37,165 bases of DNA from Bryobacteraceae bacterium (GTDB taxonomy: Bacteria > Acidobacteriota > Terriglobia > Bryobacterales > Bryobacteraceae): assembly GCA_017883415.1 (NCBI GenBank), contig JADGNR010000005.1:1-37165 (forward strand), given 5' to 3'. A program made the translations under genes and the position numbers. The stretch's first letter is position 1. Each line of letters starts with the position of its first letter. Below the pieces are notes generated by a model. That model saw only the letters and a program-made list of their open reading frames with translations. It did no database searches and was not told the DNA's origin. Shown here in pieces: positions 13,764 through 19,643 of this stretch.

Positions 13764-13931
13764 TGGTCGCCAGGTAACTCCCGAGGAAGCGCCCTGGGGC
13801 AGACGGCCGCAGGTCGGCGGCTGTTCGTGGTCTTCACGGTCCGCCGGAAACTGATACGAGTGATTTCCGCCAGGGATATGAACCGGAACGAAACGGAGAC
13901 CTACGCTCGATATGAAGAAGAGAATTCCTGA
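13764..13931 (+). pseudogene. C-terminal remnant of a BrnT-family toxin gene
   Basis: In this frame 55 codons run from just after an in-frame TGA (13761-13763) to TGA at 13929-13931. They include ALGQTAAGRRLFVVFTVR and LIRVISARDMNRNE, ending in a tyrosine- and glutamate-rich tail. This closely resembles the C-terminal half of BrnT-type ribonuclease toxins, where GRRLFVVFT and RVISAR are conserved. The N-terminal half is missing: no start codon with a ribosome binding site exists in this frame and upstream DNA carries an unrelated inverted repeat. The fragment overlaps the antitoxin start by 20 bases, the normal toxin-antitoxin layout. A sequencing frameshift could mimic this, but no intact N-terminal half was seen in the other two frames. 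Confidence 0.68.
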
Positions 13932-14193
13932 GTTCAAAAGCGAAGACGACGAGAGGAAATTTTGGGCCACCGCGGATTCGACGGAATACCTGGATTGGCC
14001 CTCGGGTAAGCGCAGGAAACTCGTTCGCCTCAAACCGTCGCTGCGGACCATATCCCTGCGGCTCCCGGTTTCCATGATCGAGGATCTCAAAGTGCTGGCG
14101 AATCGCCGCGACGTTCCCTATCAGTCCCTGCTCAAGGTCTTCCTGGCGGAGCGCCTGACGAAGGAGCGCAAGGCCGCCCGCATCCTTCCATAA
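13912..14193 (+). CDS. CopG/ribbon-helix-helix antitoxin (BrnA-like)
   Basis: This 93-residue basic protein begins MKKRIPEFKSEDDERKFWATADSTEYLDW and continues with TISLRLPVSMIEDLKVLANRRDVPYQSLLKVFLAERL. This matches the CopG_antitoxin family: an N-terminal toxin-contact segment, then a ribbon-helix-helix DNA-binding domain. Such antitoxins neutralise BrnT-type toxins and repress their own operon. The upstream partner is only a C-terminal fragment, so the antitoxin is apparently orphaned. It ends 69 bp before the ilv leader peptide, and its product could in principle bind DNA there, but that is speculation. Confidence 0.82.
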   Translation: MKKRIPEFKSEDDERKFWATADSTEYLDWPSGKRRKLVRLKPSLRTISLRLPVSMIEDLKVLANRRDVPYQSLLKVFLAERLTKERKAARILP

Positions 14194-14245
14194 ATGCAAT
14201 TTATATCGCTATTCACTTGCATTTGGAAGACTCGTCGGCTAGACT
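14194..14245 (+). promoter_or_regulatory. Candidate promoter and palindrome of the ilv operon
   Basis: TTGCAT (14217-14222) and TAGACT (14240-14245), separated by 17 bp, form a modest sigma-70-type promoter just upstream of the leader peptide. The -35-like TTGCAT is also one arm of an inverted pair with ATGCAA (about 14194-14199), a possible operator. The match to consensus is partial, so the position is provisional. Confidence 0.4.
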
Positions 14246-14262
14246 TGTACCTAAGTTCCGCG

Positions 14263-14340
14263 ATGCATCCGCGCCGCCCCATCCCGATTCCCGCAGTCAT
14301 TATTACCCTTATTCTGGTCATCGTATCCGGCCCCGCTTGA
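14263..14340 (+). CDS. ilv operon leader peptide (attenuator peptide)
   Basis: A 25-codon reading frame, ATG at 14263 to TGA at 14338, encodes MHPRRPIPIPAVIITLILVI followed by VSGPA. Residues 7-21 contain six Ile, three Val and two Leu, an extreme run expected only of a leader that reports charging of branched-chain tRNAs. It sits immediately before a terminator hairpin and the acetolactate synthase gene. Known ilv leaders work by ribosome stalling at these codons; here that is inferred from the layout. No strong ribosome binding site is visible. Confidence 0.87.
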   Translation: MHPRRPIPIPAVIITLILVIVSGPA

Positions 14341-14409
14341 CGGCCGGCAGGAACTAAGTTCCAAAGGCCATCAGCGGGGCAAAACAGCCCGGTTGATGGC
14401 CTTTTTTTT
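14327..14409 (+). terminator. Transcription attenuator of ilvBNC-cimA
   Basis: The terminator is GGCCATCA (14366-14373) paired with TGATGGCC (14394-14401), with an inner GGGC/GCCC pairing, followed by eight T (14402-14409). The competing antiterminator is GCCCCGCT (14330-14337), at the end of the leader frame, pairing perfectly with AGCGGGGC (14373-14380) in the terminator's upstream arm. A further hairpin CCGGCC/GGCCGG (14327-14347) can hide the first strand. Stalling at the Ile codons would leave 14330-14337 free and allow read-through; completing the leader would cover it and let the terminator form. Confidence 0.85.
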
Positions 14410-14437: not shown

Positions 14438-16171
14438 ATGTCAACGCTGATGAGCGGCGCCAGGATGCTGGTGGAATGCCTGTCCCGGGAGGGTGTGGAT
14501 TGCATGTTCGGGTATCCCGGCGGCGTCACCCTTCCCTTTTACGACGTGCTGTACGACCACCACATTCGCCATGTGCTGGTGCGCCACGAGGAGAATGCCG
14601 CCTTCGCGGCCGAAGGCTACGCGCGCGCCACCGGCAAAGTGGGGGTTTGCTGCGCCACCTCCGGCCCGGGCGCGACCAACCTGACCACCGGCCTGGTGGA
14701 CGCCATGATGGATTCCATCCCCATCGTAGCCATTACCGGGCAGGTGCCCACCAAGCTGATCGGCAGCGACGCCTTCCAGGAGGCCGATACCTTCGGCATC
14801 ACGCGCTCCTGCACCAAGCACAATTACCTGGTGAAGCGCCTGGAAGACCTGGCGCAAATTGTGCACGAAGCGTTCTATATCGCGGCCAGCGGGCGGCCGG
14901 GCCCGGTGCTGGTGGATGTCACCAAGGACGTGTTGCAGGGCCAGGGGCACTATCAGCCGGTGACCGCGATTCACCTGCCGGGATACAAAGTCTTCACCGA
15001 GGGACACACCGGGCAGATCCGCCGCGCGCTGCAACTGATCGGGGAAGCGGAGCGGCCGCTGGTGTATTCCGGCGGCGGCATTGTGGCGGCGGGCGCGGCC
15101 GCGGAGTTGCGCGAGTTGGTGGAGCTGACCGATGCGCCCGTGGTCACCACCCTGATGGGGCTGGGCGCCCTTGGTTCCAGCCACCCCAATTTCATCAGCA
15201 TGCCGGGCATGCACGGCAGCTATGCGGCCAACATGGCCATGACCAACGCCGACCTGCTGATCGCGCTCGGCGTGCGCTTCGACGACCGCGTCACCGGGCG
15301 CCTGGCCGCGTTCGCGCCGCACGCCAAAGTCATCCACGTGGATATCGACCCGGCGGAAATCGGCAAGAACCGCGCGCCCGAGGTCCCCATTGTCGGCGAT
15401 GTGAAGCGCGTGCTGACGAAGCTCAACAAGCTGCTGGCGGAGGCCAGGAGCGCCAATGGCGAACAGCCTCACGCCGCGCGGCGCGCCTGGTGGCACCAGA
15501 TCCGGCAGTGGAAAGAGGAGCATCCCCTGCGGGCGGCCACCTCCCCGGACGAAATCAAGCCGCAGCACCTGATGGCCGAGATCGACCGGCTCTGCGCGGG
15601 CCAGGCGATTGTCGCCTCCGACGTGGGTCAGCACCAGATGTGGGCGGCGCAGTTGATCCGCTTCCACGAGCCGCGCCTCTTTCTCAATTCGGGAGGCCTC
15701 GGTTCGATGGGCTTCGGGCTGCCCGCCGCCATCGGCGCGCAGTTCGCCTGTCCGGGCAAACTGGTCTTCGCCATCGTGGGCGACGGCGGGTTCCAGATGT
15801 CCATTCCCGAGCTGGCCACCATAGCCAGCTACCAACTGCCCATCAAGATCGTGGTGATGAACAACGGCTTTCTGGGCATGGTGCGGCAATGGCAGGAGCT
15901 GTTCTACAACAACCGCCTGAGCGCGGTGACGCTGGATTCGTTCCCGGATGCGGAAAAGCTGGCGGGCGCGTACGGCTTCAAGGGCCGCACCATCGAACAG
16001 CCGCGGGAACTGGCGGCGGCGCTGGAGACGGCGGTGAACGAGCCGGGACCGTACCTGCTGAACGTAAAGGTATCGCCCGCCGAATGCGTGTACCCCATGG
16101 TGCCCTCCGGCGCGGCCATTAATGAGATGGTGCTGGGGCCGCCCAACCCGGTGGCCGTGCCCGCCAAATGA
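14438..16171 (+). CDS. ilvB: Acetolactate synthase large (catalytic) subunit
   Basis: This 577-residue ThDP enzyme condenses pyruvate with pyruvate or 2-oxobutyrate, the first common step to valine, leucine and isoleucine. The start at 14438 follows GAGG (14425-14428) by 9 bases. Visible are FGYPGGVTLPFYD, the ThDP-activating Glu51 in RHEENAAFAAEGYARATG, SGPGATNL, ITGQVP, the FAD-binding middle domain, and the C-terminal ThDP/Mg motif GDGGFQM followed by MNNGFLGMV. The length is normal for the family. It is the first structural gene after the attenuator and is followed 13 bp later by its regulatory subunit, so both are made together. Confidence 0.96.
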   Translation: MSTLMSGARMLVECLSREGVDCMFGYPGGVTLPFYDVLYDHHIRHVLVRHEENAAFAAEGYARATGKVGVCCATSGPGATNLTTGLVDAMMDSIPIVAITGQVPTKLIGSDAFQEADTFGITRSCTKHNYLVKRLEDLAQIVHEAFYIAASGRPGPVLVDVTKDVLQGQGHYQPVTAIHLPGYKVFTEGHTGQIRRALQLIGEAERPLVYSGGGIVAAGAAAELRELVELTDAPVVTTLMGLGALGSSHPNFISMPGMHGSYAANMAMTNADLLIALGVRFDDRVTGRLAAFAPHAKVIHVDIDPAEIGKNRAPEVPIVGDVKRVLTKLNKLLAEARSANGEQPHAARRAWWHQIRQWKEEHPLRAATSPDEIKPQHLMAEIDRLCAGQAIVASDVGQHQMWAAQLIRFHEPRLFLNSGGLGSMGFGLPAAIGAQFACPGKLVFAIVGDGGFQMSIPELATIASYQLPIKIVVMNNGFLGMVRQWQELFYNNRLSAVTLDSFPDAEKLAGAYGFKGRTIEQPRELAAALETAVNEPGPYLLNVKVSPAECVYPMVPSGAAINEMVLGPPNPVAVPAK

Positions 16172-16184
16172 CGAGGCTCAACTT

Positions 16185-16736
16185 ATGCTGCAAGTGATTT
16201 CCGTACACCTGGAAAACAAGCCCGGCGCCCTGATGCGGGTCACCGGGCTGCTCAGCCAGCGCGGCTACAACATCGAGAGCCTGACGGTGGCGCGCACGCT
16301 CGACCCCGCGCTTTCGCGCATGACCATCGTGGTGGATGTGGACCCGGTGCTGCGCCAGCAGGTGATCAAGCAGATGAACCGGCTGGTCAACGTGCTGCAG
16401 GCCGTGGACCTGACCGAGTGTCCGGCGGTGATGCGCGAGCTGGTGCTGGTGCGCATCCGCACGCCGCAGGAGTCGCGCACCGCGGTATTGAAGGAGGCCG
16501 AGATTTTCGGCGGGCGCGTGGTGGATTCCTCCGTGGAAGGCTATGCCATCGAAGTGACCGGCGCCCCCGAGAAGCTGGACGAGTTTGTGGACGTGATGGG
16601 CAGCTATGGCGAGATCGACGTGACACGGTCCGGCACGCTGGCCATCGCGCTCGACGCCAAGAAACTGCGGCTTCAGCCGCCCGTTCTCACCAGAACCGGC
16701 GCCCAGGAAGAAATGGTTATCGAGCCGCCGGTGTAA
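16185..16736 (+). CDS. ilvN: Acetolactate synthase small (regulatory) subunit
   Basis: This 183-residue protein begins with an ACT domain ([20 protein letters not shown], then [15 protein letters not shown]), which binds valine for feedback inhibition in this family. The second domain contains [10 protein letters not shown] and [17 protein letters not shown], as in IlvN/IlvH. The start at 16185 is supported by GAGG at 16173-16176; an overlapping in-frame extension upstream is only the end of ilvB in another frame. It partners with the preceding IlvB. A repeat element lies between this gene and ilvC. Confidence 0.95.
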
Positions 16737-16853: not shown

Positions 16854-16888
16854 GACGATGGCGCCGCCTGCCGGGCGATGGAGGAGAC

Positions 16889-17932
16889 ATGCCGAAACGT
16901 TACTACGAAAAAGACGGAAACCTGGACTACTTGCACGGGCGCACGGTCGCCATTATCGGATACGGCAGCCAGGGCCACGCGCATGCGCTGAACCTGCGCG
17001 ATTCGGGCGTGGAGGTGGTGGTGGGGCTCTACCCCGGCAGCAAGTCGTGGGCGAAGGCGGAAGCGGCCGGATTGAAAGTCCTGAGCGCGGCCGACGCGGC
17101 GCAGGCCGCCAACGTGGTCATGATCCTGGTTTCCGATCATCTCCAGGCCGCCCTGTACCGCGACCACCTGGCGCCGCACATGACCGCGGGCAAGACGCTC
17201 ATGTTCGCCCACGGCTTCGGCATCCACTTCAAGCAGATCGCGCCGCCCGCGGACGTGGACGTATCCATGGTGGCACCCAAGGCGCCGGGTCATCGCGTGC
17301 GCGAGTTGTTCCTTGAAGGCGTGGGCGTGCCCGCGCTGGTGGCGGTCCACCAAAACCCGAGCGGGCAGGCGCTCGAGCGCGCACTCGCCTATGCGCTGGC
17401 GCTGGGGTCGCTCAAGGCGGGCGTGATCGAGACCACCTTCCGCGAAGAGACGGAAAGCGACCTGTTCGGCGAACAGGCGGTGCTGTGCGGCGGCGTCAGC
17501 GAGTTGATCCGCGCCGGGTTTGAAACCCTGGTGGCGGCCGGGTACGCGCCCGAGATCGCTTACTTCGAGTGCCTGCACGAGATGAAGCTGATCGTGGACC
17601 TGATCCAGGAAGGCGGGCTGGGGTACATGCGCTACTCGATTTCCGATACGGCGGAGTATGGCGACTACACGCGCGGCCCGCGCATCGTCACCCAGGAGAC
17701 GCGCGCCGAGATGCAGAAGATTCTCTCCGAGATCCAGTCCGGCGAATTTGCGCGGCAGTGGATCGAGGAGAACCAGACGGGGCGCAAGAACTTCCTGGCC
17801 ATGCGGGAAGCGGCGCGCAACCAGCCCATCGAACAGGTGGGGCGCGAACTGCGCCAGATGATGACGTTCTTGAAGAAGAGGAAAGAGGCGGGCGTGCCGC
17901 AGGATTCCGACGCGTCGGCCGCCAGGAAGTAA
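16889..17932 (+). CDS. ilvC: Ketol-acid reductoisomerase (NADP+), class I
   Basis: This 347-residue enzyme converts acetolactate or acetohydroxybutyrate to the dihydroxy acid using NADPH and Mg2+. The Rossmann motif [17 protein letters not shown] starts at residue 24. The C-terminal knotted domain shows [35 protein letters not shown] and [13 protein letters not shown], which carry the metal ligands. Size places it in the short class I group. GGAGGAG (16880-16886) fixes the ATG at 16889. It is the third gene of the operon, with the family B element upstream and family A element downstream. Confidence 0.96.
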
Positions 17933-18026: not shown

Positions 18027-19643
18027 ATGAAGATCTTTACGTTCGATACCACGCTGCGGGATGGAACGCAGGGCGAATCCATCTCTTTCTCGGTGGATGA
18101 CAAGCTGCTCATCGCGCAGAAACTGGACGATCTCGGGATCGACTACATCGAGGGCGGATGGCCCGGCTCCAATCCCAAGGACAAGGAGTTCTTCCGGCGC
18201 GCGGGCGAGCTGCGCCTCAAGCACGCGCGGCTCACGGCCTTCGGCGCGACGCGCTTTTCCCGGAACCCGGTGGAGGAAGACCGCAACGTGCGCGCGCTGG
18301 TAGAGGCCGCGACGCCCGCCATTTCGATTTTCGGCAAGACGTGGGACCTGCACGTGAAGCGCGCGCTCGGGATCACCGAAGAAGAGAATTTGCAGCTCAT
18401 CTCCGAGACGGTGCAGTACCTGAAGGACCAGGGCAAGGAAGTGGTCTACGACGCCGAGCATTTCTTCGACGGCTACGCCGCCAATCCCGATTACGCGTTG
18501 CGCACCCTCGAAGCGGCGCACCGCGCGGGCGCCGACGTGCTGTGCCTGTGCGACACCAATGGCGGCACGCTCACCGGCCGGCTGGTGGAGGCGGTGGCCG
18601 AAGTGCGCCGGCGATTCGACGGCGTGATGGGCATCCATACGCACAACGATTCCGATGTGGCCGTGGCCAACAGCGTGGCCGCGGTGGAGGCGGGCGCCAC
18701 GCACGTACAAGGCTGCATGAACGGCTACGGGGAGCGCTGCGGCAATGCCAACCTGGCCTCCATCATCGCCAACCTGGAGCTGAAGCTGGGCCACACCACG
18801 GTGGGGCCGGAGCGGCTGGCGGGCCTGGCCTCGGTGTGCCGGTTCATCGCCGAGCTGGCCAACCTGCCGCTGCGCGGCGATCAGCCGTTTGTGGGCAAGA
18901 GCGCCTTTGCCCACAAGGGCGGCGTGCATGTCAGCGCCGTGCTGAAGGACTCGGCCACCTACGAGCACATCGCTCCGGAAGCGGTGGGCAATCGCCAGCG
19001 CGTGCTGGTGAGCGATCTTTCCGGCCGCGGCAACATCATGTACAAACTGAAGCAGCACGGCCTGGCGGGCCGGCTGGGCGAAGAGGCGCGCCGCGAGCTG
19101 CTGGAGCGCATCAAGCAGATGGAATATGAGGGGTATGAACTGGAGGCGGCCGAAGGCACCTTCGAGCTGCTGGTGCGCGAAGCCCTGAACCCGGGGACGC
19201 ACTTTTTCGACGTGGACAGCTACGAAGTGGCGACGCGCGCCGGCGGGCCGGCCGAGGGGCCCTCGCACACCACCGCGACGGTGACGCTACGCGCGCAGGA
19301 TGGCGCCCACTCGGCCACCGCCACGGGGCACGGACCGTTCAACGCTCTGCACCTGTGCCTGCGGAAGTGCCTGGCCAAGCTCTATCCGCAGATCGCCGAA
19401 GTGCGGCTGACGGATTACAAAGTGCGGGTGCTCGATTCGAACAAGGGCACGGCGGCCAAGGTGCGCGTGTTGATCGAGTGGAGCGACCATCGCCGGAGCT
19501 GGTCCACCGTGGGGGTGTCGGACAACGTCATCGAAGCGAGCTGGAAGGCGCTGGTGGACGCCATCCGGCTGGAACTGATGCGCCTGACCGAGACGGACAG
19601 CTCCATCGAACGGGCGGTGGAAGATTACTGCTGGGGGGTGTAG
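18027..19643 (+). CDS. cimA: Citramalate synthase (2-isopropylmalate synthase family)
   Basis: This 538-residue protein is of the LeuA/HMG-lyase-like family. DTTLRDGTQGESISF near residue 7 holds the metal-binding Asp, GIHTHNDSDVAVAN supplies the HxH ligands, and GCMNGYGERCGNANL follows. FDTTLRDGTQGESI, DAEHFFDGYAANPDYA and GKSAFAHKGGVHVSAV match the TIGR00977 citramalate synthase branch rather than LeuA or NifV. It condenses pyruvate and acetyl-CoA to citramalate, opening the threonine-independent route to 2-oxobutyrate and isoleucine. The C-terminal ~150 residues form the LeuA-type allosteric domain. Placement after ilvC supports an isoleucine role. The start is preceded by AGGGGA. Confidence 0.9.
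   Translation: MKIFTFDTTLRDGTQGESISFSVDDKLLIAQKLDDLGIDYIEGGWPGSNPKDKEFFRRAGELRLKHARLTAFGATRFSRNPVEEDRNVRALVEAATPAISIFGKTWDLHVKRALGITEEENLQLISETVQYLKDQGKEVVYDAEHFFDGYAANPDYALRTLEAAHRAGADVLCLCDTNGGTLTGRLVEAVAEVRRRFDGVMGIHTHNDSDVAVANSVAAVEAGATHVQGCMNGYGERCGNANLASIIANLELKLGHTTVGPERLAGLASVCRFIAELANLPLRGDQPFVGKSAFAHKGGVHVSAVLKDSATYEHIAPEAVGNRQRVLVSDLSGRGNIMYKLKQHGLAGRLGEEARRELLERIKQMEYEGYELEAAEGTFELLVREALNPGTHFFDVDSYEVATRAGGPAEGPSHTTATVTLRAQDGAHSATATGHGPFNALHLCLRKCLAKLYPQIAEVRLTDYKVRVLDSNKGTAAKVRVLIEWSDHRRSWSTVGVSDNVIEASWKALVDAIRLELMRLTETDSSIERAVEDYCWGV

Follow-up and report, generated by a model that had tools for sequence, protein, structure and literature searches.

A predicted leader-peptide transcription attenuator, leaderless or nearly so, ahead of the ilvB-ilvN-ilvC-cimA operon in Bryobacteraceae

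On sequence and comparative grounds, the ilvB-ilvN-ilvC-cimA operon of a Bryobacteraceae bacterium is very probably controlled by a leader-peptide (ribosome-mediated) transcription attenuator. The element lies in a window of 37,165 nucleotides, the whole stretch of DNA that was analysed (contig JADGNR010000005.1, forward strand), and all coordinates are positions in that window. An open reading frame, a promoter, a terminator and an antiterminator are present, together with covariation, mutually exclusive folding, a recurrent start-site geometry and a match between the leader codons and the content of the operon. The features are as follows.

14189-14205, no strand assigned: palindrome CATAAATGCAATTTATA (motif CATAAATnnnATTTATG), a possible operator or UP-type element
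14217-14222, forward: -35 hexamer TTGCAT, conserved as TTGCAT-N17-TANNCT in most of 64 relatives
14240-14245, forward: -10 hexamer TAGACT, conserved across relatives
14263-14340, forward: leader peptide open reading frame, MHPRRPIPIPAVIITLILVIVSGPA and a stop, 25 codons without a Shine-Dalgarno sequence, with frame-specific Ile/Leu/Val enrichment over 78 leaders
14327-14347, forward: protector-type hairpin CCGGCC/GGCCGG across the stop codon (14327-14332 with 14342-14347), from the minimum free energy fold, role putative
14330-14345, forward: antiterminator 5' strand, composed of GCCCCGCT (Gly-Pro-Ala codons), the stop TGA and GGCC; 8-bp core within a 14-bp helix
14350-14362, forward: spacer hairpin GGAAC-TAA-GTTCC inside the antiterminator, from folding, its sequence variable among relatives
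14363-14404, forward: intrinsic terminator stem-loop, -31.7 kcal/mol
14366-14380, forward: antiterminator 3' strand, identical with the terminator 5' arm (GGCCATCAGCGGGGC), from pairing, covariation and masked folding
14402-14409, forward: T8 tract of the terminator, read in the sequence
14438-16171, forward: ilvB, acetolactate synthase large subunit (TIGR00118, 789.5 bits against a cut-off of 538)
16185-16736, forward: ilvN, acetolactate synthase small subunit (TIGR00119/NF008864, over cut-off)
16886-17932, forward: ilvC, ketol-acid reductoisomerase (NF004017 and TIGR00465, over cut-off)
18027-19643, forward: cimA, citramalate synthase (TIGR00977, 708 bits against a cut-off of 450)

The four genes follow one another in the order ilvB-ilvN-ilvC-cimA and all exceed the curated NCBIfam cut-offs, which bears out an earlier note, made from the letters of this DNA, that had placed cimA within the operon downstream of the leader. 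The nearest named relatives of IlvB belong to uncultured Bryobacterales/Acidobacteriia, and a BrnA-family antitoxin-like gene (13912-14193, forward strand), slightly below its curated cut-off, lies directly upstream of the element. By a by-eye count, cimA is found on the same strand and no more than about 3 kb after ilvB in 46 of the 50 family genomes having both genes, the other four comprising two cases at contig ends and two in which the genes are truly separate. A full-length threonine dehydratase of the biosynthetic type over the cut-off occurs in only 10 of 73 relatives, and in the window's genome the homologues are all shorter, the best reaching 293 bits against the cut-off of 379 for biosynthetic IlvA; the citramalate route is therefore likely, though not proven, to be the sole one to isoleucine.

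The leader frame was described by the earlier note as 25 codons with 6 Ile, 3 Val and 2 Leu in residues 7-21, and this is exact at 14263-14340. It is the richest in Ile, Leu and Val among about 885 mini-ORFs (10-40 codons) of the window, with 11 such residues per 15 compared with 8 in the next unrelated mini-ORF. Over 78 leaders, in the 15 codons preceding the last three of each, Ile/Leu/Val take a share of 57.5% in frame and of 20.2% and 3.9% in the other two frames, and not a single in-frame stop codon was met. Among relatives the leaders differ freely in length, in N-terminus and in the order of residues, and the C-terminal Gly-Pro-Ala is kept in most family members. Furthermore, the leaders favour synonymous codons that ilvB seldom uses: GTA accounts for 48% of Val codons in leaders against 6% in ilvB, ATT for 56% of Ile codons against 21%, and CTT for 33% of Leu codons against 8%. 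Such a choice may make the response more sensitive or prevent structure in the RNA.

Transcription is predicted to start at about 14251-14253, from the usual spacing between -10 and +1, giving a 5' UTR of about 10-11 nt in the window's genome. For 26 of 63 leaders the distance from the -10 hexamer to the first start codon in frame (ATG or GTG) is exactly 6-7 nt, against 0 of 63 in each of the other frames, and in most of the remaining leaders the start codon lies 8-19 nt past the hexamer. To judge from this geometry, translation would begin at or close to the 5' end of the transcript (a leaderless or nearly leaderless frame), which would explain why no good ribosome binding site precedes it; the earlier note had seen this as a weak point, and the window indeed holds no Shine-Dalgarno sequence there. 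The strong coding signature and the start codon at +1 in many relatives are the signs, at the level of sequence, that the leader would be translated. In Acidobacteria, leaderless genes have been estimated at 13.3% on average (PMC3160421). A simple consensus scanner run on the window reported neither the promoter nor this terminator, because TTGCAT and TAGACT agree with its consensus at 8 of 12 positions and the terminator stem has an internal mismatch; comparative evidence was therefore used for both. Further upstream, the palindrome is found within 2 mismatches in 40 of 59 relatives, against 0 of 59 shuffled sequences, and exactly 28 nt ahead of the -35 hexamer in 55 of 59. Its motif matches only once in the whole genome, and it also precedes ilvB in two families that have no attenuator (G093, L086; G101, L084); it is possibly the operator of some ilv regulator, or else an UP-type element.

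The terminator hairpin reported earlier, GGCCATCA (14366-14373) with TGATGGCC (14394-14401) followed by T8 at 14402-14409, was reproduced letter for letter, the stem being longer than noted (14363-14404). The perfect 8-bp pairing of GCCCCGCT (14330-14337) with AGCGGGGC (14373-14380) is likewise exact and forms part of a longer helix of 14 bp, which runs through the stop codon and GGCC and joins 14330-14345 to 14366-14380 in an RNA ending at 14385. In the folding check that the earlier note had proposed, a 166-nt region folded better than 198 of 200 shuffles (z -3.2). Its proposed search for covariation across ilvB leaders was also borne out, as both helices covary, with controls that do not remove relatedness among the genomes. 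In the terminator alignment 93.2% of cells are paired and 6 of 10 pairs are changed on both sides, with slid controls at 21-52%. In the antiterminator core 5 of 7 pairs are changed on both sides, and the measures lie above all or nearly all shuffles; this count is conservative, since MAFFT shifts AGGCGGG-type arms by one column. An alignment-free duplex test, which avoids the shift, gave -20.9 kcal/mol for cognate strands and -18.6 kcal/mol for mismatched ones, a difference of about 9 sd, and matched strand changes are seen directly in TTCGCC/GGCGAA (G012) and CCTGCT/AGCAGG (G006). Some local hairpin with dG < -5 kcal/mol is predicted at the stop region in 51 of 63 relatives, its sequence not common to all. 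A possible pairing of a conserved GGTCATC segment of the leader with the terminator 3' arm is just 0.66 kcal/mol better in cognate than in mismatched combinations (2.6 sd, p 0.006, relatedness uncontrolled), and a pairing of the 5' AGTTCC with a downstream GGAACT was judged by eye not to be general.

The full-length RNA prefers the terminator however the leader is read, so that antitermination has to depend on kinetics, which is the normal case in attenuators. The position of the ribosome was modelled with its 3' edge at +15 from the P-site codon, the established toeprint distance. With codons 7-19 in the A site all 8 core nucleotides are free, with codon 20 five, with codon 21 two, and with the stop codon none. 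In masked folding of the RNA to 14385, a stall at codon 14, 17 or 19 makes the antiterminator the best fold, at about -34 kcal/mol, and with the ribosome on the stop codon only the terminator is able to form. Codons 20 and 21 (Ile-Val) are strongly conserved, and a stall there would partly mask the antiterminator. GTC-ATC-GTA is nearly fixed family-wide just 5' of the antiterminator strand, nearer to it than a useful stall site should be.

A course of events can be proposed from these folds. The RNA would begin about 10 nt ahead of the leader ATG, and a ribosome would load at this leaderless or nearly leaderless end. With ample charged tRNA-Ile and tRNA-Val, the ribosome would quickly reach the stop codon and cover the last sense codons and the stop, that is, the antiterminator 5' strand, so that the terminator could fold downstream and RNA polymerase would halt near 14409. 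When Ile (or Val or Leu) is scarce, the ribosome would stall on the uncharged tRNA-Ile or tRNA-Val within codons 7-19 and leave the stop-codon region free; once 14366-14380 is made, this region would pair with it into the 14-bp antiterminator, which would use up the terminator 5' arm and allow readthrough, with transcription of the operon.

The element is widely kept in the family. An Ile/Leu/Val-rich frame ending 16-33 nt ahead of a terminator precedes ilvB in 63 of 65 family members, the two without an attenuator at this place being G050 and G069; homologues lacking the Ile/Val/Leu runs or the terminator pairing would have spoken against the earlier note, and the same 63 of 65 ilvB genes keep both. 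With a covariance model, R1, built from 66 sequences, 144 of the 160 genomes of the family give a match at E<=1e-5, and the window's genome has one full-length strong match. In the sister family f3 it is present in some genera, and in others the T-tract or stem is degraded. Five order-mates (L073, L075, L077, L078 and L082, in G077, G078, G088, G081 and G082) keep a leader end of the form ..IIPVAVA.PG and stop together with an antiterminator-like pairing, but their T-tract or terminator stem is gone, and regulation there may have decayed or switched mode.

Outside the family, Ile/Leu/Val-rich leaders with terminators of different sequence lie before ilvB in the Acidobacteriota families f20, f31, f42, f49 and f70, before ilvN in G312 and before cimA in G504. 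Antiterminator strands that span the stop codon covary with the terminator arm here as well, as GGATGA/TCATCC, GGATAG/CTATCC and GGATAA/TTATCC, and reach 17 bp in G504; the pairing in f49 and in one member of f42 does not stand out clearly from shuffled sequences. No Ile/Leu/Val-rich leader of this kind was seen in the sampled genomes of f11, f33 and f57. One design shared by unrelated sequences across families suggests repeated origin or fast drift. Weak matches of the phylum scan (for example L186, L187, L191, L201 and L203-L205) were taken, after inspection, for ordinary terminators or chance.

The codons of the leader can be followed where cimA has left the operon, as in the genera of G008, G050 and G068. 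Ahead of the separated cimA stands a further attenuator built in the same way (leaders MLTFLSIGIIIGAGITSPA, MNLLIIQGGILITVSIRGPA and MLLIIQGILLISVAITGPA, among others), and ilvB leaders of the split lineage are, for example, MNLSRIVVALFVVVVVGTA and MKRPTLPVAALVVVVMTAA, with none in G050. Leaders of cimA alone hold 3-5 Ile and 0-1 Val (7 genomes) and those of ilvB without cimA 0-1 Ile and 4-7 Val (5 genomes), compared with averages of 3.8 Ile and 4.2 Val in leaders of joint operons. The exact p is 0.0025 for each of the two differences, and these values are descriptive, because of the kinship among the genomes and of a split that may go back to one event; for the same reason, that related genomes are not independent, the covariation and codon-swap statistics overstate certainty. 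Furthermore, the leader of a leuA gene in G576 is rich in Leu and lacks Val (MPSCTSRGLSIASGILNLSLLALGLLTGPA), and that of an ilvN-like gene in G008 is rich in Ile. The regulatory codons thus fit the product: Ile and Val for ilvBNC-cimA, Val for ilvBNC alone, Ile for cimA alone, and Leu for leuA. The suggestion of the earlier note that a threonine-independent isoleucine route is under attenuation therefore stands in its link to cimA, which is directly supported because relocated cimA genes carry their own Ile-rich attenuators, and falls short in the word threonine-independent, which is not proven given the threonine-dehydratase-like genes below the cut-off.

The same comparisons bear on other explanations of the element. 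An arrest of the TnaC or Erm type, in which a hydrophobic nascent peptide and a small molecule rather than tRNA charging stall the ribosome, would suit a peptide that is hydrophobic and has a conserved C-terminal Gly-Pro-Ala, residues of a type that can slow ribosomes. It is nevertheless improbable, as the leader is poorly conserved beyond residue class, its Ile/Val/Leu content shifts with the downstream enzyme, and the Gly-Pro-Ala codons covary with the terminator arm, other families ending differently with matched arms, so that their conservation is explained by the RNA pairing. A small membrane protein with a function of its own and a separate terminator is also imaginable for a peptide so rich in Ile, Leu and Val, which could insert in a membrane; the variable length, N-terminus and residue order, the tracking of operon content by the codons and the enrichment of rare synonymous codons make it very improbable.

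Nor does the RNA alone fit another role well. Intrinsic terminators are common and the BrnA-like gene runs in the same direction, so the hairpin might be the ordinary terminator of that gene, followed by an ilvB promoter further down and accompanied by a chance Ile/Leu/Val-rich frame; we give this little credence in view of the conserved promoter between the BrnA-like gene and the leader, the frame-specific enrichment, the covariation of the antiterminator and the presence of the element throughout most of the family. A T-box, metabolite riboswitch or protein-controlled terminator, with the frame as a by-product, would in principle be served by the same terminator/antiterminator pair, which could answer to any ligand. 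The conserved parts outside the hairpins are, however, in-frame codons; no Rfam family reached its gathering score in the window, relaxed matches in the leader were unrelated and at chance level, and no T-box Stem I or T-box motif was recognised by Rfam in window or leader, which makes such control highly doubtful. Ribosome-mediated attenuation by the leader peptide is the reading preferred here.

This class of mechanism, classical ribosome-mediated attenuation, is already known, including for ilv operons. In enterobacteria, ilvL (ilvGMEDA) and ivbL (ilvBN) provide a leader rich in Ile/Val/Leu, a terminator and an antiterminator that exclude each other, and a position ahead of acetolactate synthase genes, and the present element shares all three traits. 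It differs from them in its phylum, in the lack of an Rfam match and of a Shine-Dalgarno sequence before the leader, in the use of the final sense codons together with the stop as antiterminator strand, and in the presence of cimA in the operon. Also comparable are the actinobacterial ilvB attenuators, in which a ribosome on the stop codon masks the antiterminator (PMC13236596), and the ilvL of Streptomyces lividans, which is reported as a leaderless leader (PMC8079986). Like Corynebacterium, Mycobacterium ilvB1NC and Streptomyces ilvBHC, the Bryobacteraceae element has a leader rich in branched-chain residues before ilvB and predicted stop-codon masking, and these relatives in design are sometimes leaderless too; they belong to another phylum, have another sequence, and their named operons are without cimA. 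Candidate terminators that overlap the open reading frame are a further shared trait (PMC1262725), and mutated ilvB leader codons had no effect in Streptomyces coelicolor (PMC1262725), whereas codon content here tracks operon content. Leaderless polycysteine leader frames of mycobacteria (Canestrari 2020, in the account given by PMC13236596) resemble the element as short leaderless frames with regulatory codons that control biosynthetic genes, and differ, as that account describes them, in their Cys codons and in working by translation attenuation, not through a terminator.

Within the phylum, the terminator screening of Naville and Gautheret (2010) listed attenuator candidates in Acidobacteria, almost none with an associated function and, in its main text, none for ilv (PMC2965389); they are like the present element in being premature terminators upstream of genes. 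In the literature searched, mostly excluding subscription papers, there was no assigned leader-peptide attenuator in Acidobacteriota and none of citramalate synthase, and the combination of phylum, leaderless design and cimA control was not found. On balance, Acidobacteriota seem to have a class of leaderless attenuators to themselves, which probably arose independently. In this class the ribosome that terminates would mask a strand of last sense codons and stop, the genes governed would be ilv, leuA and citramalate synthase genes, and the codons would re-specialise when the operon splits. Genomes with a split operon offer a natural experiment on a central tenet of attenuation theory, namely that the signal is set by the identity of the codons: Ile codons and Val codons are each found in the leader of that gene whose product requires them. 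The near-absent 5' UTR offers a clean system for how leaderless translation keeps up with RNA polymerase, and the covariance model supplied annotates a regulatory RNA of most genomes in a poorly studied lineage rich in uncultured members.

Some further elements were observed beside these. In G002 (C18) a second copy, L288, has an Ile/Leu/Val-rich leader ending in VVLLLNNIAIPVITIRGPA and a stop. In G069 (C178), the genome of which has an ilvB without attenuator, the terminator and antiterminator of the family stand before a threonine ammonia-lyase gene (L290), with a leader frame that is not clearly Ile-rich. In distant Acidobacteriota, candidate Cys-rich leaders with terminators (..CMCCC.. and ..CPICSCCC..; L194 in G504 C58 and L196 in G369 C7) precede a sulfite/nitrite-reductase-like gene and a siroheme-synthase-like gene.
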